From Candidatus Iainarchaeum sp. (GTDB lineage: Archaea; Iainarchaeota; Iainarchaeia; Iainarchaeales; Iainarchaeaceae), in assembly GCA_016202305.1 (NCBI GenBank), contig JACQPB010000005.1, positions 1-53,302 of the forward strand: a stretch of DNA of 53,302 nt, read 5' to 3'. The position numbers were made by a program, and so were the translations under genes. Below are positions 18,729 through 52,637 of the stretch, one piece after another. The notes beneath the pieces were generated by a model. That model saw only the letters and a list, made by a program, of their open reading frames with translations. It did no database searches and was not told the origin of the DNA. Numbering within the stretch: the first letter of the stretch is position 1; each line of letters begins with the position of its first letter.

Positions 18729-19511
18729 ATGAAAGCTATTGAAGAGGACGACATGGAGCTGCTCCAATCAGGGGAATCTGCCGCTGATTCAATGGTGGCC
18801 CTGCCTGACAAGGTTGACCTCGTGGACCTCATAGAGCAGCCCGCGTGGAAGACCATCCTCATAGAGCTCGTGAAGACCGAGCGCATGGACCCCTGGGAAA
18901 TAGACATCGCCGACCTGGCTAGCAAGTACCTCAAGAAAATCAATGCCCTGACAGGCAACGACCTCAGGCTTCCCGCAAACGCGATTCTCGCATCAGCCAT
19001 ACTCCTCAAGTTCAAGGCCAACGTGCTGCGCATAAGCGAGATTGAAGACGAGGAGGAATTCCTCGAAAAGCAAAAGCAGATGAGTGTTGAGGAGAGGGCG
19101 GAATTCGAGGCCATGCTGCCAGACCTGAAGAACATAAGGAAGATAAAGGAGGGCAAGGTCTCGCTCGACGAGCTTGTGCTCAGCATCGAAAAAATGCTCA
19201 ACAGCGCCAAGAAGACAAAGGACAGGAACATACTGCGCGAGCGCACGAAGTTCATAATTCCCGCGCACGACTTCGACATAGACAAGGCCATGGAGAAAGT
19301 CTACAAGTCAATAACCAAGGCAGCGGACTCCCAGGGCCTCGTGCTTTTCTCTAGGCTGGTGAAGGAAAGCGATACGAACGAAGGCATCGTGCGCACATTC
19401 ATACCGTGCCTCTTCCTGACCAACAAGGGCCGCATAAACATGTGGCAGGACGTTTTCTTCGGCGAAATTTTCCTGAGTCTGAATGCCGGAAATCAGGCGG
19501 AAAAAAGCTGA
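18729..19511 (+). CDS. scpA: Segregation and condensation protein A
   Basis: WEIDIADLASKYLKKI, LPANAILASAILLKFKANVL, C-terminal wHTH ending QDVFFGEIFLSLN. Confidence 0.88.
   Translation: MKAIEEDDMELLQSGESAADSMVALPDKVDLVDLIEQPAWKTILIELVKTERMDPWEIDIADLASKYLKKINALTGNDLRLPANAILASAILLKFKANVLRISEIEDEEEFLEKQKQMSVEERAEFEAMLPDLKNIRKIKEGKVSLDELVLSIEKMLNSAKKTKDRNILRERTKFIIPAHDFDIDKAMEKVYKSITKAADSQGLVLFSRLVKESDTNEGIVRTFIPCLFLTNKGRINMWQDVFFGEIFLSLNAGNQAEKS
19449..19511 (+). repeat. scpA 3'-end repeat, copy 1
   Basis: 63 nt; hand alignment gives 51/63 identical to 21449-21511. Confidence 0.8.
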
Positions 19512-19521
19512 TTTTATAATT

Positions 19522-19950
19522 TCATTTTTTCTTGAACAATTCTTTTTCGTATTGTGCAAGCCATTTTGCTACAAGTTTAAGCGCTTCTGTTTGCCTCATC
19601 CAGCTTGCATAGCTTTCCCCGTATTTTGTTTTTGAGTAGTGCCTGGATTTAGTGAAAAGAAAATTTTCTTTCCAAAGTTCCTTTTTGCTTTCAGCTATTT
19701 CCAGTGTGGCATCCTGCCATCTTGCCCTGAAATAGAAATGCTTTCGGAATATTGTTCCTTCTATTTGGACGGGCGCAGCAAAGCATGTTGTTTTGAGTTT
19801 AAGTGGCGAGAGGTAATCCTGCAGCGCTTTGTTTTTTTGAAACGCCTTGGAAATTTCTTTGAGCTTCTTTAGCCTTTGTTTTTTCGAGAGAGCTTTTTTT
19901 GCCATTACAAATTTTGAATGGCTGCTTTTAAATTCATATATTTTGGACAA
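19522..19950 (-). CDS. Hypothetical Lys-rich protein (AT-rich)
   Basis: 142-aa ORF inside the segment bounded by the two scpA ends. Confidence 0.55.
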   Translation of the reverse strand: MSKIYEFKSSHSKFVMAKKALSKKQRLKKLKEISKAFQKNKALQDYLSPLKLKTTCFAAPVQIEGTIFRKHFYFRARWQDATLEIAESKKELWKENFLFTKSRHYSKTKYGESYASWMRQTEALKLVAKWLAQYEKELFKKK

Positions 19951-19970
19951 TGACTAATAAACTTTGTAAC

Positions 19971-19996
19971 TTCATTTGCTGTTATTTCATTTGCTG
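19971..19996. repeat. Short direct repeat TTCATTTGCTG x2
   Basis: TTCATTTGCTG at 19971-19981 and 19986-19996. Confidence 0.7.
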
Positions 19997-20032
19997 GCCT
20001 GTTTTTTTTCTATTGAGCAATAATATGGTTTA

Positions 20033-20050
20033 TGCTCATTATAATGAGCA
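20033..20050. promoter_or_regulatory. 18-bp perfect palindrome TGCTCATTATAATGAGCA, operator candidate
   Basis: Self-complementary; in the divergent intergenic region upstream of the AAA ATPase. Confidence 0.5.
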
Positions 20051-20132
20051 AACCCGCCAAAATTGCTGGAAAAGCACCATTTAATCACTCATAGTAAACA
20101 TTTTTATATACTTTTGTTTAGTATATTTTTCT

Positions 20133-21380
20133 ATGTTGTCAGATGTGCTTGTTTTGCAAAAGCGTGAATTGGAAGCGCGCCTTGCAGAGCGGTTTATTGA
20201 AAGGGATGCAAAGCTGCGGAATGCAGCCAGTGACACGATAAAAGTCATTATCGGGCCGCGCAGGGCGGGGAAGTCGTTTTTTGCAATTCATGAATTGCGA
20301 AAATTGGGCTCATTCGGATATGTCAATTTTGATGATGAGCAACTGGCAAAAGTGGAGGATTTCAACGAAGTTCTGGCAGCTATAGACAGCCTGTATGGCT
20401 CGCCGCGCTTCCTGCTGCTTGACGAGGTCCAGAATTTCCCAAAGTGGGAACTGCTTGCAAACAGGCTCCAGCGGCAGGGGCGCAACCTTTTCCTGACGGG
20501 CAGCAATTCGAACCTTTTGAGTGCGGAACTTGCAACGCACCTGACCGGGAGGCACACCTTGGCTTATGTGTTCCCGTTCTCTTTCAAAGAATTTTTGGCT
20601 TTGGAAAAAAAAGAACTGACTTCTGCTGAAACCAAGCAGAAATTGCTTGATTTTGTGACTTACGGGGGCTTTCCAGAACCGCTTGTCAAGAAAATGGATT
20701 ATGCCGATTATGTGTCAAGGCTCTTCGATAACATCATGTACAAGGACATAATTTCGCGCTACAAACTCCGGCGCATAAAGACCGTGCGGGAAATAGCGCA
20801 GATTCTTTTTTCGAACGTCACAAAGGAATTTTCCTACAACCAGCTGAAAAACTCGGTCCAGAAAACAAGCGTAGTAACGCTCCAACGGTTTATTTCATAT
20901 CTTGAGGAAGCCTTTGTTTTTTTCGAGATGCCGCGCTTTTCTTTCAAGGCAAAAGAGCAGGCGAAGTACAACAAGAAGATATACTGCTTTGACAACGGCT
21001 ATATTTTTGCCAAGGCATTCAAAACAAGCCCTGATTGGGGCGGGTTATTTGAAAATGCCGTGGCCATCGAATTAAAGAAAGGGGAAATTGAGCACGAGCA
21101 CAAGGTATTCTACTGGAAAAATGCGCAAAACCACGAGGTCGATTTTGCCATCCAAAAAGACCGGAAAATCAGTCGGCTAATCCAAGTGTGCTTTGACCCA
21201 ACGGACCCGAAAACAAAAAAACGCGAGGAACGCGCATTGCTAAGGGCAAGCCATGAACTGAACTGCCAAAACCTTTTAGTGCTGACCAATGACTACGAGG
21301 CAACCCAGAAAACGGAATGGTTCGGGCTAAAAGGCACAGTAAAATACAAGCCCCTATGGAAATGGCTGCTCGAAAACTGA
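20133..21380 (+). CDS. AAA/P-loop ATPase with DUF4143-like C-terminus
   Basis: Walker A GPRRAGKSFF, Walker B FLLLDEVQNFPKWE, LTGSNSNLL, SFKEFLAL, nuclease-like tail HKVFYWKNAQNHEVDFAI. Confidence 0.88.
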   Translation: MLSDVLVLQKRELEARLAERFIERDAKLRNAASDTIKVIIGPRRAGKSFFAIHELRKLGSFGYVNFDDEQLAKVEDFNEVLAAIDSLYGSPRFLLLDEVQNFPKWELLANRLQRQGRNLFLTGSNSNLLSAELATHLTGRHTLAYVFPFSFKEFLALEKKELTSAETKQKLLDFVTYGGFPEPLVKKMDYADYVSRLFDNIMYKDIISRYKLRRIKTVREIAQILFSNVTKEFSYNQLKNSVQKTSVVTLQRFISYLEEAFVFFEMPRFSFKAKEQAKYNKKIYCFDNGYIFAKAFKTSPDWGGLFENAVAIELKKGEIEHEHKVFYWKNAQNHEVDFAIQKDRKISRLIQVCFDPTDPKTKKREERALLRASHELNCQNLLVLTNDYEATQKTEWFGLKGTVKYKPLWKWLLEN

Positions 21381-21398
21381 AAGTGGCAGGAAGTATTC

Positions 21399-21511
21399 AT
21401 CAGGGCAATCTTTGTTGTGGCATATGGGCCGACAAATACTCCCCAAGAGACGTGTTCTTCAGCGAGATATTCTTGAGTCTGAACGCTGAAAACCGGGCGG
21501 AAAATGGCTGA
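21399..21511 (+). pseudogene. Remnant second scpA 3' end
   Basis: 21449-21511 encodes [20 protein letters not shown], matching DVFFGEIFLSLNAGNQAEKS* of ScpA; weaker similarity upstream in a shifted frame (FIRAIFVVAYGPTN vs FIPCLFLTNKGRIN). Confidence 0.7.
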
Positions 21512-22064: not shown

Positions 22065-23186
22065 ATGCAGGACATTGTTGAAACGGCCGCGGCCGAGGCA
22101 GTGAAGGCTTTGCGCTCCTGCGTCACGCCCAATGGCCTCTATGCTTCAGGCGGCCGCGGCGGGTATAGTTCCGTGTGGGCGCGCGATTCCATGATTTCGC
22201 TCATAGGCGCGTCTTTCCACACTCCTGAGTTCCGCGGCGTTTTCGCGAAAAGCCTCTCCGTGCTGGCGAAGTACCAGAGTGCCAATGGGCAGATTCCGAA
22301 TTGCGTTGATGTTTTCGAGCGCATAAACGACAAACCCGTAACGTTCGCCACGATAGATTCTAGCCTATGGTTCGTGCTCGGCGAGCATTTTTACAGGAAG
22401 CGGTTCGGCGCATCCATGCGGGGGAGGCACGCGGGGAAAGTAAAAAAGGCCATGACATGGATTGGGTGCCAGGATGCCGGGGAGGATTCGATGCCTGAGC
22501 AGCTCCCGACCTCGGATTGGCAGGACTGCTTTCCGCACAAGTACGGGCACACGATAAACACGCAGGCCCTCTACTATGCTGCGCTCAGGGTTGCCGGAAG
22601 GAAGGCCGCGATTCCGTTTTTTGTGAAGCAGGTGAACAGTTATCTCTGGGACGAAAAACTCGGTTACTTCCTGCCATGGCACTGGAAGGACCATGGAGAG
22701 TACAGCGAGAAGGCCCAATGGTTCGATTCGCTGGGCAATATCCTTGCGGCAGTGCTCGGACTTGCCACGAAAAGGCAGGCTAAAAGGATTCTCGCATTCA
22801 TCGAGGACAAGGGCATCAACAGGCCTTTCCCGGTGCGCGTCATCTACCCTCCCATTTCGAGGGGTTCCGCTGAATGGAGGGATTACTTCGACGCGTGCCT
22901 CGCCGCTGAAAGGCACTCCTACCTGAACGGCGGCATCTGGCCTTTCGTGGGCGGCTTCTATGTCACTGCGCTTGTAGCGGCCGGCGAGCTCCGAAAGGCC
23001 AGGGAGGAGCTTGCGCTGCTTGCGAAAGCGAATTCCCTCGGGAGGAAATTCCCGTGGGACTTCAATGAGTGGATAAGCCCTGTGGAGAAAAAGGCGATGG
23101 GCAGCAGGCACCAGGCGTGGAGCGCAGGGACCTATCTGCTGGCATACCACGCAGTGAAAACAGGCAGGAACCCGTTAAAGGTTTAG
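22065..23186 (+). CDS. (alpha/alpha) toroid glycosidase, GH100/glycogen-debranching-C-like
   Basis: GGYSSVWARDSMISL, FATIDSSLWFVL, LNGGIWPFVGGFYVTAL, DFNEWISP. Confidence 0.65.
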   Translation: MQDIVETAAAEAVKALRSCVTPNGLYASGGRGGYSSVWARDSMISLIGASFHTPEFRGVFAKSLSVLAKYQSANGQIPNCVDVFERINDKPVTFATIDSSLWFVLGEHFYRKRFGASMRGRHAGKVKKAMTWIGCQDAGEDSMPEQLPTSDWQDCFPHKYGHTINTQALYYAALRVAGRKAAIPFFVKQVNSYLWDEKLGYFLPWHWKDHGEYSEKAQWFDSLGNILAAVLGLATKRQAKRILAFIEDKGINRPFPVRVIYPPISRGSAEWRDYFDACLAAERHSYLNGGIWPFVGGFYVTALVAAGELRKAREELALLAKANSLGRKFPWDFNEWISPVEKKAMGSRHQAWSAGTYLLAYHAVKTGRNPLKV

Positions 23187-24353
23187 CCTTTTCTCTATCG
23201 TGCGCGCCATGTCGAGGGATGTCTTCCTGTAATCGAAGGCTGCCACTGCGCGCTCCCTGCCCTTTGCACCCATCTTGTCCCTCAGGGCATCATCCTGCAT
23301 CAGCCTGAAGAGGTGCCTCGCGAGGTCGTCGATGTCGGCCCGGACGGCAAACGTCTTGGGCTTGTCGAATTTTATTATCTGCTTCCTGCCGAACCCCATG
23401 TCCTTGTAGGCCCATTCCTGCTCGAGCTCTATGGTTTCGCCGACTTTTGCAAGCAGCCCTGTCTCGTTGTGCACCACCGTGTCCTTTATTCCCATAGCGT
23501 CAACAGAGAGCACGGGTATGCCAGCAGCCATTGCCTCGACCTGTATCATGCCGAATCCCTCTATCCTGCTCGGCGCGGCGTAAATGTCGGCGGCCGCGAG
23601 GAGCACGTTCATGGTTTCGCGCGAGCATGGGCCGTCTATGTACTTTATTTTTTTAGTGAACCCGAACTCCCTGGCTATCTGCCTTTCGGCCTTGTAATGG
23701 TACTTCGGCTCCCTGTTCTCCCAGCTCTTGCCGACGTATTTCCATTCAGGGAATTCACTGCCTATTTTGCCGAGTGCCCTCAGCATTTCCTGGAACCCCT
23801 TGCTCGTGGTGTCCCCGCCTATTGTCAGTATCATCTTTTCATCGGCCCTGATGCCGAGCATCTCCCTCATTGTGAGCACGCGTGGGTCGCTTTTCGGAAT
23901 GGGCTTCAGCAAGCGGGTGTCTATGCCTATCGGCGCTGGAAGAATATTGGGGTTGCGGACCCCGTCGCGGATGTAGGTTTCCTTCACCCAGTTGCTCGTC
24001 ACGAAGACCAGCGGAAGGCTGTCGAGCAGCTCGTGGTAATTCGCTACCCATCCGTCCGCATTGAGCCACGGCACTGGCGTTATGCCGTGCTCCATAGGGT
24101 GCTTTATTATGTCGGGAGCATCGCCCCAGAACCCTATCCCTATTGCCACGTTGGGCCTGAAGCTCCGGTAGAGAAATTCCTTCTCGAGGTCGGCTTTCCT
24201 ATTGCACTGCGCAGTTTCATATCCGTTCTCCGAGAGGCCGTTGGCGAGATAAAGGCCCTGGAGGCTGATGCCGTCAAGCTCCGGCGGGAAAGGGTAAAGC
24301 ACCAGCGGCCTTAACCCATGTCCCGGGCTTTTCACAGGGTCGTGGTTCGGCAT
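23175..24353 (-). CDS. Glycosyltransferase, GT-B fold (GT4-like)
   Basis: APSRIEGFGMIQVEAMAAGIPVLSVDAMGIKDTVVHNETGLL. Confidence 0.85.
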   Translation of the reverse strand: MPNHDPVKSPGHGLRPLVLYPFPPELDGISLQGLYLANGLSENGYETAQCNRKADLEKEFLYRSFRPNVAIGIGFWGDAPDIIKHPMEHGITPVPWLNADGWVANYHELLDSLPLVFVTSNWVKETYIRDGVRNPNILPAPIGIDTRLLKPIPKSDPRVLTMREMLGIRADEKMILTIGGDTTSKGFQEMLRALGKIGSEFPEWKYVGKSWENREPKYHYKAERQIAREFGFTKKIKYIDGPCSRETMNVLLAAADIYAAPSRIEGFGMIQVEAMAAGIPVLSVDAMGIKDTVVHNETGLLAKVGETIELEQEWAYKDMGFGRKQIIKFDKPKTFAVRADIDDLARHLFRLMQDDALRDKMGAKGRERAVAAFDYRKTSLDMARTIEKRLNL

Positions 24354-24357
24354 CGGC

Positions 24358-24939
24358 TCACACTATTCTCTTGAAAGATTCTGTCCGGGCGCAGCTGAGG
24401 AACTCGAAGCTGGTCTCCTGAAAACCATACGCATCGCGGATTAAATACCTTTTCATTTCATGCTCCCGACTAGTCAGCTCCACTCTGAGCGTGGATTCGG
24501 GATTCGGCTCGCACCTGAAGGGGCTTTCGCGGCGGGCATAATCGAACGTGAACAGGCCTGAGCACCTGAGCTCGCCGTCCGAAACCATTTCGAGCACGCA
24601 CTTGTGCGTTTCGATGTGCCTCTTGTGCCCGTACTCGCCGTTGCTGCCATGCGTGAATACCGTGCCGAACTCCTTGTCCATCGCAACCGCCGAGACGCGC
24701 TTCCGGACCTCGTCCATGTTCGGGAGGTCTTCCTCAGGGTGGTCGTCCTCCATGTCCGAGATGAAGCCGCGGGCGTTCAGCAGCGAGCATACCCTGAAGA
24801 ACTTCGGCTTCCTGTCGGGGTCGTCCTTCCTGCACAGCGAGAGTATAGTCCACTCCCATTCTTTTTCGCGCATTATCCTGCCGCCCATCCAGATTGTCTC
24901 GTCATCCGGGTGCGCGACTATCACGAGGGCCTTTGCCAT
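24358..24939 (-). CDS. PIG-L/LmbE family deacetylase
   Basis: VIVAHPDDETIWMGG and THGSNGEYGHKRHIETHKCV motifs; start at internal Met. Confidence 0.88.
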   Translation of the reverse strand: MAKALVIVAHPDDETIWMGGRIMREKEWEWTILSLCRKDDPDRKPKFFRVCSLLNARGFISDMEDDHPEEDLPNMDEVRKRVSAVAMDKEFGTVFTHGSNGEYGHKRHIETHKCVLEMVSDGELRCSGLFTFDYARRESPFRCEPNPESTLRVELTSREHEMKRYLIRDAYGFQETSFEFLSCARTESFKRIV

Positions 24940-25017
24940 GAGGAAGAGGTGCAGGGAAAAAAATAAATAGGGTGTATGCACTTACTTTGACTGCCTCCGG
25001 ATTCGCGGATGGCTGAG

Positions 25018-26695
25018 ATGGTGCATCACTATATATACGGGCGGAAAAGTTTTTGCGGTAGGCGACCTGAACATTGACCTGTTCACGTACCACTCCGGCG
25101 CATTGAGGTTCGGCGAGGAGCATGCGGCGCGCGATTTCAGATGCGCTATAGGCGGGAACGCCGCCAACTCCGCCATGGCGCTTTCAGGCCTCGGCATTGA
25201 TGTTTCGCTCGTAAGCGCAATCGGGAAGGACGCGTTCACTCCGTTCCTGAGGCGCGAGCTGTCGAAGGGCGGCGTGAGGCAGGTTCTTTCACGGCTTGAC
25301 TCGCCGAATGGCGTGTCTACCATTTTTGTAAGGGCCGGGGGGGAGCGCGCCATCATTTCCCACAAGGGATGCCTTCTCGGCCTCGACTCGCGCATGGTAT
25401 CGCGCTCTCTCCTTCCGCGCATTTCCCGCGGCGACATCGTGCTCTTCGGTGGCTATTTCCATCTTCCCGGCATGAGGAAGGGCTTCACAGGGCTGCTGAA
25501 GGCCATAAGGCGCAAGGGGGCCATTGCATGCCTTGACGCGTGCTTTGACGAGTACGGCACGTGGAAGGCGAGGCATTTCGCCAGGCATATAGACTATTTT
25601 TTCCTGAACGAGCTCGAGCTCTCGCGCATCACGCGCTCCGGGAAAAACACCCGTGCAGGGGTGGAGAGGCTGCTTTCATGGGGCGCGGGAAATGTTATAC
25701 TGAAAAGGGGCCGCCGCGGCGCTGAATTCCATTCGGCTTCTGGCCATGCCTATGCGAAGGCCTGCAATGTGCGGGCTATCAATGCGACAGGGGCTGGGGA
25801 TTTCTTCAATGCTGGCTTCCTGTATGGCCTCCTCAGGGGATTCAGTCCGGAGAATTGCCTGCTGTGCGGCAACTTTGTCGCAGGGCAGAAGATTTCGAGG
25901 CAGGATTACTTCATTCCGCGGAAAAAAACGCTTGCTGATTTCCTCGCAAAGAGGAGCCTTGCCGGAATAGTGCGCGTGAAGGATTATAGGGCCGTTTCCA
26001 GGGCGGCTTTCGATGCCGTTGCCGGGGCGCTGCGCGAAAAGCCATCTTCCGTGCTTTCGCTCGCGGCAGGAAAAACCCCGGTGGGCGCATACAGGATGCT
26101 TGCGAGGGCATTCAGGCTGGGCAATGTCGACTTTTCGAAAGCATCTTTCCTTGAGCTGGACGAATATATTTCCCGTGGCGGTTTTCCGCGCGAAAGATTC
26201 GCGGGGATACTGGCGAAGGAGCTTATCGGGAAGGTCAACTTCAGGCATGGCAATGTTTTCCTTTTCAGCGGAGATGCCGCGAAGGCGCGCGCTGAATGCA
26301 GGCAGGCGGAACACCTCGCTTGGCGCAGGGGCATTGACCTGCTCCTTCTCGGCATCGGGGAGAACGGCCACATAGCGTTCAACGAGCCCGGTTCTCCATT
26401 CAGTTCAGGCACGCGCGTAGTGCGCATTTCGCGCTCCGCCCTGAGGTCGCGCGGCGGAAAGCCATCTGGCCATCATGACGCAAATGCCGTGACGTTGGGC
26501 ATGCGCACTATCATGTCTGCCAGGAAGATTGTGCTGATTGCTGCAGGAAGGGAGAAGGCGCGGGCCATTGTGCGCGCGTTCGGCAAAAGGCCTGGCCAGA
26601 ATGTGCCTGCATCCATCCTGCAGATGCACGGCAATGCCACTGTGATAGTTGACCGTGCCGCGGGAAGGCTGCTTGCCGGGGCACGCATGGATTGA
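25018..26695 (+). CDS. Fusion: PfkB-family sugar kinase + glucosamine-6-phosphate deaminase/6-phosphogluconolactonase-fold domain; 5' frame uncertain
   Basis: PfkB: VFAVGDLNIDL, GGNAANSAMALSGLG, NATGAGDFFNAGFLYGLL. NagB-like: LLLLGIGENGHIAFNEPGSPF. Track start is TTG 25103, but PfkB strand 1 is encoded from about 25046 with no in-frame ATG/GTG/TTG. Confidence 0.8.
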
Positions 26696-26824: not shown

Positions 26825-29005
26825 TCAGACTACCATAAGTCTCGCGAGCAGGTACGATATCGTGGCTTCCGCTCCCTGATTGGCATTCACTCCATTCGGC
26901 GTGAGGCCGTCATAGCACCCGCCAGTGGTTTCGTCATACACGGCCTGGTTCATGGAATTTTTGCCGAGGAACCAGTCGAACGATTCCCTCGCCTTGCGGG
27001 CATACGCATGGTCCCCTGTCCTTTCAAAAGCCTTGCGATATGCCACTGTCATGCCACCCGCCTCAATGGGCTGCTGGTCGAACATGGCGCGCTCCTCGCC
27101 CTTCGTGTACCATTTTTCCTGGCCTATGGGCACGAGTTTCCCGTCTATGAAAAGCGTCCTCGTGAGGAAATCCATTGATTCGCGGGCCACCTTTTCCGCC
27201 ATTCCGGTGCTGTCAAAAATTGCTGCCTCGAAGAGCGCCTCAGGGAGCGTGGCGTTTCCGTACGTGAGGTAATGCTCGAACCAGTGCCATTCCTTGTCGC
27301 TCGACTCCTCGTACTTGGAAATGAGCGACCCTATGAGACTGTCCTTTACCCGGTAAAAAGGGTGCTCGCTGAGGAATTCGCGCGAGTTCGCGATTCCGAT
27401 GAGAGTGTCCGCCTGTGCCCTAGGGGAGATTATTTCCCCGCTGCCTTCCATGGCCTTTTCAAGGGTCCTCTTTGCCCTGATGCGGTACTCTTCAGGAAGG
27501 CCGCTCTGCACTGCATACCCAAGCGCATTGACCGCCCTGCCGAAGCTGTCCTCGCTTCCGATGTCGTCGGAAAACTCGCGGTTCCCGTCAACAGTATTGT
27601 GGAACCTGCCGTCCGGAAGCTGGCATTTTTCCACGAAGGATAGGTAAGTGCTGGCAAGGCAGAGCATTTTCTTTGTGCCATAGCGTTCGTACGCTTTTGC
27701 CGCCACTACAAGCGCCCTCGCATTGTCGTCAAGCGTGTAGCCGCTCGCAGTGTCAGGCTCGGAATGGTTCGCGAACTGCACCATGCCAAAGCCGTCAGTC
27801 ATCTTTGAAAAGTGCCGGAAGCTCGCCCTCGGGATGTTGCTGAACTCCTCCGCGCCGAACGGCGAGAGGGAATCGAAAAGGCAATAGTACCTTGCGGACA
27901 CGTTGGGCCACGTCATTTTCCTGCTGTACTCATAGGCATTCCTTTCGAGGCTCCTTCGCTCTGCATCATTGCCGAGCAGCCTCACGGTTTCACTCGCGAA
28001 TTCCTCCGGCCTTGTCCTGCGCACCAGTATGCCTCTGCCGGAAGCCAGTACCTCGTTGTTGTAGTTGCTCCTCGAAGACACTATGGCCCTTCCGGCGCCC
28101 ATCGCATAACTCACCGTGCCGCTGCATATCTGCTTCGGGTCGATTGACGGAGACAGGTATATCGTGGCCATCTGGAGGCACTCGCTTATTTCCTCGAGCG
28201 TCAGGAACTTGTCGAGGAACTTCACTTTCCTCCCGACTCCGAGGCCTTCCGCGAGTTCCCTCAACTCCTGCCTGTAGCTCTCTCCCTCGATTTCGCGCAC
28301 GCGCGGGTGCGTCTGGCCCACCACGAGGTATTCCGTGTCAGGGTGCGCGCCGATTATCCCCGGCATGGCCTTTATGACGTTCTCCACTCCCTTACCCCTG
28401 CTGAGAAGGCCGAAAGTCAGAAGGACGTTTTTCGCGCGCACGCCATATTTCCTTTTCACCTTGAGCGCGTTCACTGGCCGCATGTTGGGTACGCCGTGCG
28501 GTATCACTTCCAGTTTCTCCGGAGGCAGGCCGTAATCCTCAAGGAGTATCGACCTCGCGGTCTCCGTCATGACAACCACCCTGTCGCTGAGGTGCGCAAT
28601 CTGCTGCACATTCTCCTTCATTTCCCTGGGAGGGGAATCTAAGACCGTGTGGAGCGTCGTGACGATTTTCCTGTTCAGCAGCTCCATGAACCTCAGTATG
28701 TGCCCGCCATATTCACCGCCGAAAAGGCCGAACTCGTGCTGTATGTTGACCACTCCAGCGTCCTTCATCCGGTTTATCTTCCTCGCGGCACTCTCATAGC
28801 TCGCGATGTCCTGCTCCGTGAGCTTCAGCGCGACCTTGCGGCCGTACTTGTGCAGGGTGCTGCCGGATTCGTTGACGGCTATGACCTTCGGGGAAACGGC
28901 GTTCCCGAATTTTTTCTGCATCGAGTCTGAAAGGTCTTTCGTGAATGTCGCTATTCCGCATTCGCGCGGCGGGTAAGAGGAGAGGAACAATACTGGCTTG
29001 GTCAT
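26825..29005 (-). CDS. Glycosyltransferase (GT4-like) fused to a six-hairpin/toroid glycosidase-like domain
   Basis: N-terminal LFLSSYPPRECGIATFTKDL, FGLLSRGKGVENVIKAMP; C-terminal SGYTLDDNARALVVAAKAYE, SEDSFGRAVNALGYAV, DQQPIEAGGMTVAYRKAFE. Confidence 0.82.
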   Translation of the reverse strand: MTKPVLFLSSYPPRECGIATFTKDLSDSMQKKFGNAVSPKVIAVNESGSTLHKYGRKVALKLTEQDIASYESAARKINRMKDAGVVNIQHEFGLFGGEYGGHILRFMELLNRKIVTTLHTVLDSPPREMKENVQQIAHLSDRVVVMTETARSILLEDYGLPPEKLEVIPHGVPNMRPVNALKVKRKYGVRAKNVLLTFGLLSRGKGVENVIKAMPGIIGAHPDTEYLVVGQTHPRVREIEGESYRQELRELAEGLGVGRKVKFLDKFLTLEEISECLQMATIYLSPSIDPKQICSGTVSYAMGAGRAIVSSRSNYNNEVLASGRGILVRRTRPEEFASETVRLLGNDAERRSLERNAYEYSRKMTWPNVSARYYCLFDSLSPFGAEEFSNIPRASFRHFSKMTDGFGMVQFANHSEPDTASGYTLDDNARALVVAAKAYERYGTKKMLCLASTYLSFVEKCQLPDGRFHNTVDGNREFSDDIGSEDSFGRAVNALGYAVQSGLPEEYRIRAKRTLEKAMEGSGEIISPRAQADTLIGIANSREFLSEHPFYRVKDSLIGSLISKYEESSDKEWHWFEHYLTYGNATLPEALFEAAIFDSTGMAEKVARESMDFLTRTLFIDGKLVPIGQEKWYTKGEERAMFDQQPIEAGGMTVAYRKAFERTGDHAYARKARESFDWFLGKNSMNQAVYDETTGGCYDGLTPNGVNANQGAEATISYLLARLMVV

Positions 29006-29563: not shown

Positions 29564-30649
29564 TCACACCAAGGAGCCGAGTATTTCCTTTATCCCGATT
29601 TTCCTCACCTCGATGCACGAATCTGCCGCGCCGGAATAAATCAGCAGGCCCTTCCCGTCCCTGTCCGGAATCGCGGCAGTCGGGAACACGACGCTGTTCA
29701 CGAAGCCAGTCCTTTCGTAATATTCCTTCGGGCCGAACAGCGGCTCGTCCTCCGGTGTCCTCGCGATGACCCTTTCGGGATTTTTCGCGTCGAGGAGCAT
29801 CGCTCCCGCGCTGTAGACCTTGCCCTTTTCCGGCCTTTTCCTGTTCACATAGCGCACGCCGTGGTATATTGCGAGCCAGCCTTCGCCGGTCAGGAGTGGC
29901 ACGGCCCCGGGCCCTATCCTGAGCTCGTCCCAGGAATTGTCCCTCGGGCTGAGTATCGGCCTGTCCCTCCCCCAGAACTCGAGGTCATTAGAATACGAAA
30001 TCCAGATGCGCGGCTTGTCGAATATCATCGTGCCTTCTGGCCTGTGAAGTGCGGCGTACATGCCGCCGATTTTCTCCGGGAATATCACCGCATCCTTGTT
30101 CTGCTGCCTGAATATTATCCCCTTCCTCTCCCATTCCACGAGGTCACGGGAGAGCGCGAGCGAAGTCGACACGCCGCTGCACATCGAAACTGAAACGTAC
30201 GTCATCGCGTAGAGCTTCTCCTTCCGCAGGTGCGTGATGCGCGCGTCCTCCACTCCGAAATCGCCGTCTTCGCTGAGGCCGGCGAAATCCATCGCCGTGC
30301 TGGCTTCAACCACATTCATGCCTGATTCGTCAAGGAGTATTTTCCTGAAGTGGGATATTGTGGGGAGCCTGTAAATGCTGTTGTCCATTATGAAGCTCTC
30401 AGGGCCAAGCCGGCCCTTGCTCCGCGGTATCTCCTCGATGATTATTTTAGTGCGCTTGGTGCCGGAGAAGCGCGGGGCGAGGAAAATCCTCTTTCCATGC
30501 TTCGGGGTTTCCGCGATTCTCGCATACAGCATTATCTTTCCGTCCCGCAGCCTCACGGCCCCGGGGTTCAGGACGCCGCGCACCCGGAAGTTCGGCAGCG
30601 TCGGCCGGATGTCTTCCGGGGAAAGAAGGAGCTTCGGCCTCGATTTCAT
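29564..30649 (-). CDS. GH130-family glycosidase/phosphorylase (DUF377-like)
   Basis: VLNPGAVRLRDGKIMLYARIAET, FGVEDARITHLRKEKLYAMTYVSVS, IYHGV; internal ATG preferred. Confidence 0.8.
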   Translation of the reverse strand: MKSRPKLLLSPEDIRPTLPNFRVRGVLNPGAVRLRDGKIMLYARIAETPKHGKRIFLAPRFSGTKRTKIIIEEIPRSKGRLGPESFIMDNSIYRLPTISHFRKILLDESGMNVVEASTAMDFAGLSEDGDFGVEDARITHLRKEKLYAMTYVSVSMCSGVSTSLALSRDLVEWERKGIIFRQQNKDAVIFPEKIGGMYAALHRPEGTMIFDKPRIWISYSNDLEFWGRDRPILSPRDNSWDELRIGPGAVPLLTGEGWLAIYHGVRYVNRKRPEKGKVYSAGAMLLDAKNPERVIARTPEDEPLFGPKEYYERTGFVNSVVFPTAAIPDRDGKGLLIYSGAADSCIEVRKIGIKEILGSLV

Positions 30650-30755
30650 GCTATGTAATTGTCGGACGCCGTATTTATAGGTTTTGCAGGGCAAACCCGG
30701 CCCTATGACTTTCTTTCTTCAATATTTCTGCGAATGTTATGATTTAGGCTTCTAA

Positions 30756-48501: not shown

Positions 48502-49923
48502 TCACAGACCCTGCACGACGTTCTCAATCCTGTTGAACCATTCGCGGCCGTCCTTTGCAATCATTTCGTCGGCCTCTTTCGGCCCCATGCTGCCTTTGGC
48601 ATAAGGATGGAGGACCGGCCTCTTCTTGGTGACCTTGTCAATGGTTTTCCATGATAGCTCTACCTCATCGGAGCGGACGAACGCGCTCTGGTCGCCCTGC
48701 AGTGCCTCGAAGAGCAGTGTTTCGTATGCCTGCGGTGTGTTGGGGCCAAAAGCGCACTCGTGGCAGAAGGTCATTTTCACGGGCATCACCTTCAGTTTCT
48801 CCCCGGGCACTTTTCCGTTCAGCTGGACAAGCATGCCGTCGTCCGGCTGGATTTGTATGACCAGGTAATTCGGGTTGAGCCGCTGGTTGTGGAACACGGT
48901 ATAGTTTGGTTCCTTGAATTGGATGTATATTGACGCGAATTTCCTGCCGAGGTTCTTTCCGGAGCGAAGGTAGAACGGAACGCCCTTCCAGCGCTTGTTC
49001 CCTATGGTCGCCTTGAGTGCGAAAAAAGTCTCGGTTTTGGAGCCGCTCCCGACACCCGGTTCGGATGAATACCCCTCATACTGCCCGAGCACCGCATCAC
49101 GTGCACTGAGCTTCACTTTCCTGAGCACTTTCACTTTCTCGTTCCTGATGCATTTCTCGTCAAAGCGCGCGGGAATCTCCATTGCAATAAGGCAAAGCAG
49201 TTGGAGAAGGTGGTTCTGGCCAACGTCACGCAGTGCGCCCTGATTGTCATAAAAGTTGCCCCTGTTGCCGATGCCGAAATCCTCTATCAGGTTTATCTGC
49301 ACGTGGTCAATGTTCTCGCTGTTCCATATTGGGGAAAATATCCTGTTTCCGGCGCGGAGTATCCCTATGCTCTGCACCAGCTCCTTGCCGAGGTAATGGT
49401 CTATCCTGTAAATCTGCTTTTCATCGAACACCTTGCGTATTTCCCTGTTGAGTTCGCGGGCGGTCTTTTCGTCGCTGCCGAAGGGCTTTTCGAATACGAG
49501 GCGGCACCATCCTTTTGTTTCTGTAAGGCCGTGCTTCCGGAGGCTGTAAGCGATGCTCTTGAAATGCGACGGGAGCGTGGCGAGGTAGAACAGCCTGTTT
49601 TCGCCTGCATTATGGGCTTTTTCGGTGGTTGACAGGTATTGCTGGAGACTTTTGAAGCCGTTTTCGGGCCTGCCGAAGTCCACTGCATGGTAATAGAGCC
49701 TCTCCTCGAGCCTTTTCCAGGAATCTTCATGCAGCTTCGGGATATTTGATTTCACGAGCCCCGCGAATTCTTCGCGCGAGAAATCCTTCCTTCCGGTGCC
49801 GATAATGCAGAAGTCATTGCCTGTGCGGTTCATCCTTATGAGGCCGTGCAGCGCAGGGAAGAGCTTTTTCTGCGCGAGGTCCCCTGTTGCGCCGAGTATT
49901 ATGAAAGAGAAATTATTTTGCAT
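48502..49923 (-). CDS. zwf: Glucose-6-phosphate 1-dehydrogenase
   Basis: FIILGATGDLAQKKLFPAL, active-site RIDHYLGKE; internal Met preferred. Confidence 0.94.
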   Translation of the reverse strand: MQNNFSFIILGATGDLAQKKLFPALHGLIRMNRTGNDFCIIGTGRKDFSREEFAGLVKSNIPKLHEDSWKRLEERLYYHAVDFGRPENGFKSLQQYLSTTEKAHNAGENRLFYLATLPSHFKSIAYSLRKHGLTETKGWCRLVFEKPFGSDEKTARELNREIRKVFDEKQIYRIDHYLGKELVQSIGILRAGNRIFSPIWNSENIDHVQINLIEDFGIGNRGNFYDNQGALRDVGQNHLLQLLCLIAMEIPARFDEKCIRNEKVKVLRKVKLSARDAVLGQYEGYSSEPGVGSGSKTETFFALKATIGNKRWKGVPFYLRSGKNLGRKFASIYIQFKEPNYTVFHNQRLNPNYLVIQIQPDDGMLVQLNGKVPGEKLKVMPVKMTFCHECAFGPNTPQAYETLLFEALQGDQSAFVRSDEVELSWKTIDKVTKKRPVLHPYAKGSMGPKEADEMIAKDGREWFNRIENVVQGL

Positions 49924-50587
49924 TTTTCCCACCGAATACGGTAAAGACAATGCACTTTTTGGCTTTTAAGGCTATTTTTGCAGGGCAATTTGCCACCGAA
50001 ACGTTTTTGTCCATGAATTTCTCAAATGCAGGCCTCTTGGTCTCCGAGGCAAAGAGCAGGATAACCATGCCAGCATGCCAGATGGCCTTGGGAGACAGTG
50101 AAATTCTCGAAGCTGGCGGCTTCGGGGCGTCGTGCACCTCTATGTACCCTGCGCTGTTATTGCCCACGGCGGGGGAATTCGGGAAAAGCGACGCGATGTG
50201 GCCGTCCTCGCCTGCCCCCAGCATGACCAAATCCAATTTGCCGTTTGTCACTGACAAAAATCTTGCTTCATAAGCCGAAAGCCCTTTTTCCATTTCAAAA
50301 GGGAACGCATGGATGCCCCGCACCTTCGAGAAAAGCAGTTCATTCGCCTGCCTGTAATTGCTTCCCGCATCGGTGATTGGCACGAGGCGCTCGTCTGCCA
50401 TGAAGGCGTTCACTGCGGGCCACACAGCTTTCCTGCCTGCAAGCTCCTCGAGCAGCCCGGTAACAGAGCTGCCACCGGAAATGGCAAGGCAAAACTGCTT
50501 CTTTGCCGAATTAATTTCGTATGCCGCCGTTTCAGCGGCCTTCCGGCTCATTCCATCGAAATCCTTGGAATGGATTATTTTCAGCAT
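49913..50587 (-). CDS. pgl: 6-phosphogluconolactonase
   Basis: AISGGSSVTGLLEEL, MADERLVP, LVMLGAGEDGHIASLFPNSPA. Confidence 0.9.
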   Translation of the reverse strand: MLKIIHSKDFDGMSRKAAETAAYEINSAKKQFCLAISGGSSVTGLLEELAGRKAVWPAVNAFMADERLVPITDAGSNYRQANELLFSKVRGIHAFPFEMEKGLSAYEARFLSVTNGKLDLVMLGAGEDGHIASLFPNSPAVGNNSAGYIEVHDAPKPPASRISLSPKAIWHAGMVILLFASETKRPAFEKFMDKNVSVANCPAKIALKAKKCIVFTVFGGKNAK

Positions 50588-50599
50588 AAGAATCGGGCT

Positions 50600-51496
50600 T
50601 CACTTCTTCGGCTCTTCATGACCGCCGAACATGCTGCGTAGCGCGGCAACAACCTTCGTGGAGAAATCAGGCTTGCTGAACGACCTCTTTCTGGCCTTCA
50701 TGGCCTGCTCAAGCATCGGCATTTTCAGCTTGTACTCTTTTGCCGTGTCAAGCGCCCATTTGCCGGTGCCCCCGCCCCCGACAACTCCGCGATGCCTTGA
50801 AAGCTTCGGGTCAGAGGCAAGGGATTGGGAGAGCAGGTCCATGAGCCAGCCCCTTATCACAGAGCCGTTCCGGAAAACCCTTGTAACTTCGCGCAGGTCT
50901 AGCCGATACTTGCTTTTTTCGAGGAGCGCATAGCCCTCGCCATAGGCCTGGAGGAGGGAATACTCAATGCCATTGTGCACCATCTTCACGAAATGCCCGG
51001 CCCCGCTCCCGCCGAGCCATGCGTATCCGCCAGGCACCGCGAGCGCCCTGAATGCTGGCTCAACAGCATCAAATGCCTGCCTGTTTCCTCCCACCATTAT
51101 TGAAGCGCCGTTTGCCGCGCCTTCGAGGCCGCCGGAAGTGCCGGCATCGAGGAAGTGGATGCCTCTCTTTGCCAGTGATTTTGCCCTCCTAATCGAGTCC
51201 TTGTAGAAGGAATTCCCGCAATCCACGATGATGTCGCCGGCGGCAAGAAAAGGCCCGAGCCCATTAATCACTTCGTCCACGGGCTTGCCATGGGTGACCA
51301 TGAGGAATATCATTTTTGGCGCGGGAAGTCTTTCGCAGAATTCCCTGTAAGAACCAGTAGGGACAGCGCCCTTGCCTGCAAGGGCCGTCATGGAGTCAGG
51401 GCGCCTGGCATAGAGCACGACCTCAAAGCCCTGCCCAAGCAGGCGCTCTGCCATACGCGAACCCATTTTCCCAAGGCCGATGAAGCCGATTCTCAT
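50600..51496 (-). CDS. gnd: 6-phosphogluconate dehydrogenase (short form)
   Basis: GFIGLGKMGSRMAERL, DAGTSGG, GGGGTGKWALDTAKE. Confidence 0.92.
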   Translation of the reverse strand: MRIGFIGLGKMGSRMAERLLGQGFEVVLYARRPDSMTALAGKGAVPTGSYREFCERLPAPKMIFLMVTHGKPVDEVINGLGPFLAAGDIIVDCGNSFYKDSIRRAKSLAKRGIHFLDAGTSGGLEGAANGASIMVGGNRQAFDAVEPAFRALAVPGGYAWLGGSGAGHFVKMVHNGIEYSLLQAYGEGYALLEKSKYRLDLREVTRVFRNGSVIRGWLMDLLSQSLASDPKLSRHRGVVGGGGTGKWALDTAKEYKLKMPMLEQAMKARKRSFSKPDFSTKVVAALRSMFGGHEEPKK

Positions 51497-51497
51497 T

Positions 51498-51799
51498 TCA
51501 ATCCTCTGCCTTCAGGACCGGGATTTTACCTTTCCCTGTCCGGATTCTATTTATTTCCGCTTTTGCAAAATTCATTTTTTCAATGACGGCCTTGATTTTT
51601 GTCTCGGCCATCAAATCCTCCTCTTCGGCACCAGAAAGAATCAAAGTGTCCCGTTCATTCTCAAGCCTGTCAAGTTGTGCTTGTAGCCAGCCAATGGCTT
51701 CCGGGCAAGTTCTTTGTCACTTTCCAGCAACCTATAATATCCGACCTCATTAATGCCTCTGATTCTGACAGGAGTTTTTCTTTGGGGCCTGCTTCGCAT
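51498..51799 (-). pseudogene. Small charged/coiled-coil ORF split by an apparent one-nucleotide frameshift
   Basis: MRSRPQRKTPVRIRGINEVGYYRLLESDKE in one frame continues as LCPEAIGWLQAQLDRLENERDTLILSGAEEEDLMAETKIKAVIEKMNFAKAEINRIRTGKGKIPVLKAED* in another; shift near 51700-51720. Confidence 0.55.
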
Positions 51800-51803
51800 C
51801 ACA

Positions 51804-52637
51804 TCACACTAATTTCCTGAACTCTTCCGGCGTATCCTCGGTGAATTTCTTCATCCCTTCAACCGTCAGCCGGTGCCGGGCCAATTCCCGGAAAACGCCG
51901 AATGGCATTGTCGCGATGTCAGCGCCGACTATTGCAGCCTCGCGCACCTGCCTTGCATTCCTCAAGGATGCGGCAAGCACTTGGGATTTGATTCCATAGC
52001 GCCTGAAGATTGAAACTATCTGGGCTACAAGGTCAATGCCGGAAACAATGCCATTGTCCTCGAGCATTTTCCCTTCATGCATGTGCCCATTGAGCGGATA
52101 ATAGTCCTCTTTTGAAAAACCGGCAAATTCATGGCTATGCTCCTTCCTCAGCATGTCGTCAATCCTTCCGGCAAAAGGGCTGACAAAGTCCGCGCCGGCC
52201 TTTGCGGCAGCAAGGGCCTGTTCCGGCGTGAAAACGAGCGTGCAATTGACTGGTATTTTTGCCTTGTGCAGTTCGTTTATTGCCCTGATTCCGTCAAAGT
52301 CCTTTCCGGGATTCTGGTCGAATGCCGGGTTCACTGGTATTTTGATGTAAACATTCTTTGCCACAGGATTGAACTTCTTGAACAGCTTCTTGCCCTGCTC
52401 CACCATGGCCTTTGCAGTGCCGATGTCGGTCACTTCAAGGCTCACGGGCGTGCCTTTCGCGGTCTTGAGGGCCTTTTTGATGTACTTCTCCAAGTCAATC
52501 CTCTCGCCATCCGCCTTGAGGCCGTCAACGGCCTTCTTGACAAGCGAAGGGTTCATCGTTATGCCGTCGCAGATGCCCGTCGAATAGGCCTGCTCTATCT
52601 CTGAAAGGAGCGCGGAGTCGAGGAAGAACTTCATCAA
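51804..52637 (-). CDS. tal: Transaldolase family protein
   Basis: MKFFLDSALLSEIEQAY, GITMNPSLV, NVYIKIPV, ADFVSPFAGRIDD. Confidence 0.9.
   Translation of the reverse strand: MMKFFLDSALLSEIEQAYSTGICDGITMNPSLVKKAVDGLKADGERIDLEKYIKKALKTAKGTPVSLEVTDIGTAKAMVEQGKKLFKKFNPVAKNVYIKIPVNPAFDQNPGKDFDGIRAINELHKAKIPVNCTLVFTPEQALAAAKAGADFVSPFAGRIDDMLRKEHSHEFAGFSKEDYYPLNGHMHEGKMLEDNGIVSGIDLVAQIVSIFRRYGIKSQVLAASLRNARQVREAAIVGADIATMPFGVFRELARHRLTVEGMKKFTEDTPEEFRKLV

Follow-up and report, generated by a model that had tools for sequence, protein, structure and literature searches.

A PfkB sugar kinase fused to a NagB-type deaminase in Diapherotrites, a candidate bifunctional glucosamine kinase/glucosamine-6-phosphate deaminase

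Can a single open reading frame of an uncultured archaeon, in which a PfkB-type kinase is followed by a domain resembling glucosamine-6-phosphate (GlcN6P) deaminase, encode one polypeptide that converts an amino sugar to Fru6P? The frame lies in a stretch of 53,302 nucleotides from Candidatus Iainarchaeum sp., here called the window, which corresponds to G000:C44 in our genome set and belongs to a MAG of 1.04 Mb and 79.7% completeness. The features needed for the analysis are the following, with the evidence for each in brackets.

22065..23186, + strand: GHx, a glycoside hydrolase of the conserved cluster, with GH100 invertases / GDE_C as its relatives (Pfam)
23175..24353, − strand: GT4a, a GT4 glycosyltransferase directly after PIG-L and paired with it at related loci (Pfam)
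24358..24939, − strand: divergent PIG-L (LmbE/MshB-like) N-deacetylase that carries AHPDDE; the genome has no other PIG-L match (Pfam, family search)
24971..26695, + strand: whole open frame of the PfkB-NagB fusion (homology from about 25046; the stop codon ends at 26695)
25009..25050, + strand: 5' anomaly, with ATG 25009/25018 one frame off from the fusion (the sequence itself)
25046..25903, + strand: PfkB (ribokinase-like) sugar kinase domain with GGNAAN and GAGD motifs and catalytic Asp253 (codon 25799-25801) (Pfam, invariant columns, ribokinase fold match)
25904..25993, + strand: interdomain linker, free of stops (Pfam, AlphaFold model)
25994..26638, + strand: NagB-type GlcN6P deaminase domain with D373-E374-Y375 (codons from 26159), H443 (26369-26371) and E448 (26384-26386) (Pfam, NCBIfam, PDB, invariant columns, fold)
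26825..29005, − strand: GT4b, a glycosyltransferase of 726 aa that has an additional C-terminal domain and belongs to the cluster in family f1 (Pfam)
29564..30694, − strand: GH130 (mannoside phosphorylase-like), in the cluster in f1 (Pfam, NCBIfam)

Two other parts of the window are recorded here for their composition. Positions 1-1400 have 33% G+C compared to about 54% elsewhere and carry a 421-aa ORF without a Pfam match, preceded by the P-loop-like GERGVGKSA; this part may be an element acquired recently, or the contig may be chimeric at this end. Positions 19501-21400 (41% G+C) encode an AAA_14/DUF4143 ATPase and are possibly mobile.

The stretch 24971-26695 is free of stops for 574 codons in a single frame, and the translation of 25043-26692 gives the 550 residues used for numbering. 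In this translation, Pfam assigned PF00294 (PfkB) to residues 2-287, with 145.8 bits against a gathering score of 25.8, and PF01182 (Glucosamine_iso) to residues 318-532, with 64.9 bits. A preliminary description of this DNA had placed both domains on one ORF, PfkB first and NagB second, and both assignments proved correct: no stop or frameshift separates the domains, the two motifs that it quoted (NATGAGDFFNAGF and LGIGENGHIAFNEPGSPF) were found in the fusion, and each domain retains its catalytic motifs.

The start given in that description, ATG 25018, had to be abandoned, as it lies in another frame than the fusion and reaches a TGA at 25075. No ATG, GTG or TTG is present in the fusion frame before 25103, although PfkB homology begins at about 25046. 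The ATG codons at 25009 and 25018 adjoin a TATATATA repeat and a GGAAAAG run, and they would be in frame if a single base were surplus in the stretch from 25018 to about 25050 (e.g. in either of these). The missing in-frame start suggests that the assembly is wrong here, that the gene has a real lesion or that its start codon is non-standard, and the window copy may be broken at its 5' end. As the fusions of relatives start with an intact ATG at the equivalent place (e.g. L034, L037), the reality of the fusion is independent of this anomaly.

When 93 Diapherotrites/Iainarchaeota genomes were searched with a fusion profile, the fusion was detected in 15, in two families (f1 and f8). It was intact in 12 (G000, G002-G004, G014, G049, G063-G068) and interrupted by an N gap or a contig end in three (G001, G069, G073). 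The PfkB-NagB fusion is real and conserved. An assembly chimera was considered and is ruled out by the 12 genomes with an intact fusion and the same neighbours. The kinase was also found without an attached NagB, in G005, G024, G033, G042, G055, G070-G072 and G092, and no NagB remnants were seen in the translated stretches downstream of these solo kinases. Two of these solo kinases, those of G033 and G042, branch within the fused f8 clade of the kinase tree, and the G005 kinase branches among fused f1 kinases, a nesting that suggests secondary loss or fission. On the NagB side, the fused domains of the two families fall into adjacent f1 and f8 clades (83/94), and the f1 clade also takes in the solo NagB of G005 and G024. 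One old fusion followed by several losses is the simplest reading of these trees, the alternative being two fusions.

Outside these genomes, the plasmid collection held no place covering 80% of the query, and L074, with the same homology coordinates as the G065 copy, was the only full-length match to the fusion among the contig matches listed. Beyond Diapherotrites, NagB was found next to PfkB relatives in one case only among the 80 loci listed: L084 (6001-7670), on an Actinomycetota contig (isolate NC_groundwater_992), where separate nagB and pfkB genes overlap end to start. Within what was searched, the fusion is restricted to Diapherotrites. The record of L075, titled Candidatus Falkowbacteria bacterium, is a contig of G042, which is placed in Diapherotrites, so that a mislabel is probable. 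No description of a PfkB-NagB fusion was found in the open-licence literature searched (PfkB with GlcN6P deaminase, Diapherotrites with glucosamine); its component families are known, and their combination appears to be new.

The AlphaFold model of the fusion showed two confident domains (pLDDT 88, pTM 0.88). Foldseek searches with this model matched its two parts to ribokinases and sulfofructose kinase (by target length, TM mostly 0.75-0.88) and to monomeric NagB (TM 0.91 on the same basis), and none of the best 50 matches was a structure spanning both domains.

For the second domain, the preliminary description had left NagB to be weighed against 6-phosphogluconolactonase (6PGL), and catalytic residues, scores and fold all decided for NagB. 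The domain carries LDEY and GENGHIAFNEP; across the 12 fused proteins, Asp373, His443 and Glu448 do not vary, and Glu374 is nearly invariant. The NCBIfam deaminase models NF001684 and TIGR00502 gave 181.2 and 157.1 bits, both under their curated whole-protein cut-offs (326 and 236.9, respectively). The 6PGL model TIGR01198 gave 56 bits on the fused domain, under its cut-off of 124.45, compared to 147 bits on a separate 6PGL gene between zwf and gnd (49913-50587), which served as an in-window control. The best solved relative in the PDB sequence search was Bacillus subtilis NagB (2bkv, E 4e-38), and solved GlcN6P deaminases were closer to the domain than 6PGL by both sequence and fold. A 6PGL identity is therefore excluded by scores, motifs and fold, and the predicted deamination of GlcN6P by the C-terminal domain is well supported. 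The domain resembles the monomeric B. subtilis-type enzyme in its fold, at 33% identity, and in the LDEY and GxNGHIAFNEP motifs; unlike the stand-alone protein, it forms the C-terminal half of a 550-residue chain behind a kinase and scores under the NCBIfam equivalog cut-offs.

The kinase domain contains the GAGD motif with its catalytic Asp, and this residue (D253) is invariant among the fused proteins, so that the catalytic residues of both domains are invariant or nearly so in the set of 12. GGNAAN, FGG[FY][FY]HL and [ST]T[GA]AGD.F are kept in almost all fused homologues. Among NCBIfam models, the ribokinase model gave 107 bits compared to 59.1 and 55.1 bits for the hexose-phosphate-kinase models TIGR03168 (hexose kinase) and TIGR03828, whose cut-offs are 216.4 and 292, and no model of a characterised PfkB subfamily reached its cut-off. 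The kinase matches in the best 50 fold matches were only ribokinase-type or sulfofructose-kinase structures, with no phosphosugar-kinase structure among them. From these comparisons the domain looks like a sugar kinase rather than a phosphosugar kinase (Pfk-2, LacC, FruK). It shares with ribokinase and the sulfofructose kinase YihV the fold, the GG and GAGD motifs and the catalytic Asp, and it differs from the characterised enzymes in its low identity to them (19-24% in the fold comparison), in the NagB fused to it and in belonging to a lineage of its own within Diapherotrites, according to the tree made in this analysis. As its motifs give no substrate, we infer glucosamine from the context described below, with fructose, GlcNAc or Fru6P as alternatives.

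The most constant part of this context is the PIG-L gene. The divergent PIG-L followed by GT4a was found at 14/14 fusion loci with upstream flank, and GHx was present at the fusion loci wherever enough sequence was examined. The place of the fusion is taken in G005 and G024 by a solo NagB, which adjoins PIG-L. The near-complete G019 and G020, without the kinase lineage, had no PIG-L. In addition, NagB carries a fused C-terminal PIG-L domain in G014, G033, G042, G055, G064, G065 and G072, and the corresponding half of a protein of G017 matches PIG-L weakly. PIG-L, PfkB and NagB are therefore linked in three ways, by synteny, by the PfkB-NagB fusion and by the NagB-PIG-L fusion. The NagB--PIG-L proteins (cf. 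NCBIfam NF002557/PRK02122, glucosamine-6-phosphate deaminase-like protein), which occur in the same phylum (L028), are similar to the window protein in joining NagB to another amino-sugar enzyme, but their partner is a C-terminal deacetylase instead of an N-terminal kinase. As the PIG-L of the window is a separate, divergent gene, the window protein does not have the NF002557 architecture.

Two further observations concern these neighbours. NagB--PIG-L type fusions were present in 7/8 relatives without full GlmS (G017, G033, G042, G055, G064, G065, G072; L027-L031) compared to 1/14 with GlmS (Fisher p about 4e-4, a value that leaves out G000 and relatedness and includes some GlmS cut by contig ends and the weak PIG-L half of G017), and such proteins might replace GlmS in making GlcN6P. 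Separately, PIG-L plus GT4a (window 22065-24939 and relatives) resembles MshA/MshB or PIG-A/PIG-L pairs, and the Diapherotrites cluster may make a GlcN-containing glycoside or lipid.

Regarding the metabolism around the fusion, NagA was not found above cut-off in 16 genomes, and the ADP-dependent kinase family PF04587, to which the kinase of T. kodakarensis belongs, had no match in 24 genomes. Neither PfkA nor ADP-dependent PFK/GK turned up in the 24 genomes searched, which were the window genome (as assembled) and 23 relatives. Most fusion genomes carry a complete or nearly complete GlmS (G001, G002, G004, G014, G049, G063, G067, G068), and none was recognisable in the window genome; all genome-wide absences in the latter depend on searches, family by family, of a MAG that is 80% complete. 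Positions 48502-52637 of the window contain zwf, pgl, gnd and a gene of transaldolase type.

Taken together, the domain scores, the catalytic residues, the conservation in 15 genomes, the PIG-L gene at every flanked locus, the NagB--PIG-L fusions and solo NagB genes next to PIG-L, the sugar-kinase character of the PfkB domain, the monomeric B. subtilis type of the NagB domain, the lack of NagA above cut-off in the 16 genomes searched and the pairing at L084 argue for a catabolic, bifunctional glucosamine kinase/GlcN6P deaminase that would depend on deacetylation by PIG-L for its substrate, and to this reading we give slightly better than an even chance. The divergent PIG-L would deacetylate GlcNAc or a GlcNAc-glycoside and so provide glucosamine, as synteny and the NagB--PIG-L fusions suggest; the N-terminal PfkB domain would phosphorylate C6 of a free amino sugar, with glucosamine as the most likely one; and the C-terminal NagB domain, in agreement with its family, fold and conserved catalytic residues, would isomerise and deaminate GlcN6P to Fru6P and ammonia. 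The Fru6P would then enter the pentose-phosphate route, in line with the zwf, pgl, gnd and transaldolase-type genes of the window and with the failure to find PfkA or an ADP-dependent PFK in the 24 genomes. The catabolic direction is inferred from the coexistence of GlmS with the fusion in most genomes, where NagB is not needed to make GlcN6P. The idea of the preliminary description that a single polypeptide takes an amino sugar to Fru6P is thus the best-supported reading, given the adjacent PIG-L, the sister-genome NagB--PIG-L fusions and the retention of the fusion; the substrate of the kinase is its presumptive part.

A comparable order of steps is found in the chitinolytic route of Thermococcus, where PIG-L type deacetylation is followed by phosphorylation of GlcN and deamination. 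There, the deaminase is of another (SIS) family and the kinase is ADP-dependent and separate; the Diapherotrites genomes differ in having no PF04587 relative among the 24 examined. We know of no PfkB enzyme with glucosamine kinase activity. The GlcN kinases of Vibrio cholerae, Thermococcus kodakarensis (the ADP-dependent enzyme) and Actinobacteria treated in PMC6520443 are unrelated in sequence, and neither PfkB nor ribokinase is mentioned there.

Some findings speak against the bifunctional glucosamine reading. The kinase without attached NagB stays in the cluster in G033, G042, G055 and others, which argues for a role of the kinase independent of deamination in cis. The cluster also includes glycosyltransferases and hydrolases of unassigned substrate, the fused NagB, as stated, scores under the NCBIfam cut-offs, PfkB enzymes are not known to us as glucosamine kinases, and the 5' end of the window copy may be broken. 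Four other explanations were weighed.

A fructokinase-like enzyme could phosphorylate fructose freed by an invertase-like GHx, with NagB, whose reaction is reversible, aminating the resulting Fru6P to GlcN6P for glycan synthesis. The best solved relatives of GHx are GH100 invertases and that of GT4a is Tll1590, which we take to be a sucrose-phosphate-synthase-like protein (both similarities are weak), and this scheme would also suit the window genome, in which no GlmS was recognisable at 80% completeness. However, a second route to GlcN6P is unneeded in most fusion genomes, which have GlmS, and the constant PIG-L partner has no place in it, so we regard it as unlikely.

Rather improbable, in our view, is a kinase that makes GlcNAc6P, with PIG-L deacetylating this product in the stead of NagA and NagB ending the pathway. 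The lack of NagA above cut-off in all 16 genomes agrees with it, as do the direct PIG-L--NagB fusions of sister genomes, which consecutive steps would predict. Nevertheless, the fused kinase and deaminase would then catalyse non-consecutive steps, and the PIG-L enzymes known to us have GlcNAc glycosides or oligosaccharides as substrates rather than GlcNAc6P.

The fusion might also merely tether two independent enzymes of the same regulon, with a kinase that acts on an aglycone or another sugar without feeding NagB, for example where a glycoside containing GlcN, produced by GT4a and PIG-L in an MshA/MshB-like manner, is turned over. That kinases lacking NagB keep their place beside PIG-L, GT4a and GHx fits this idea, and MshA and MshB are among the solved relatives of GT4a and PIG-L, respectively (the PIG-L match being weak). 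We consider it quite improbable, because NagB is repeatedly tied to both the kinase and PIG-L and all catalytic residues are kept in the fusion.

Least probable of all is that the kinase is the missing phosphofructokinase downstream of NagB, so that one chain would take GlcN6P through Fru6P to fructose-1,6-bisphosphate: phosphofructokinases do occur among PfkB enzymes and neither PfkA nor an ADP-dependent PFK was found in any of the 24 genomes, but the N-terminal GDLNxD and GGNAAN motifs and the scores fit a ribokinase-type enzyme, phosphosugar-kinase models score far lower and such structures are absent from the best 50 matches. Moreover, PFK is also missing from G019 and G020, which lack the kinase lineage, and PMC8407392 reports a wide absence of Pfk among DPANN archaea, with the pentose phosphate pathway proposed as a bypass.

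Returning to the bifunctional glucosamine kinase/deaminase, the wider proposal that PfkB-NagB and PIG-L form a compact GlcNAc-to-Fru6P module with the first PfkB-family GlcN kinase, restricted in what was searched to Diapherotrites without NagA or recognisable phosphofructokinases, is tentative and has in our estimate somewhat less than an even chance. Its confirmation would mean one more family of glucosamine kinases, unrelated to the others, together with a new domain architecture, and would provide a rare, directly testable step of carbon and nitrogen acquisition for an uncultured archaeal phylum of small genomes without a recognised phosphofructokinase.
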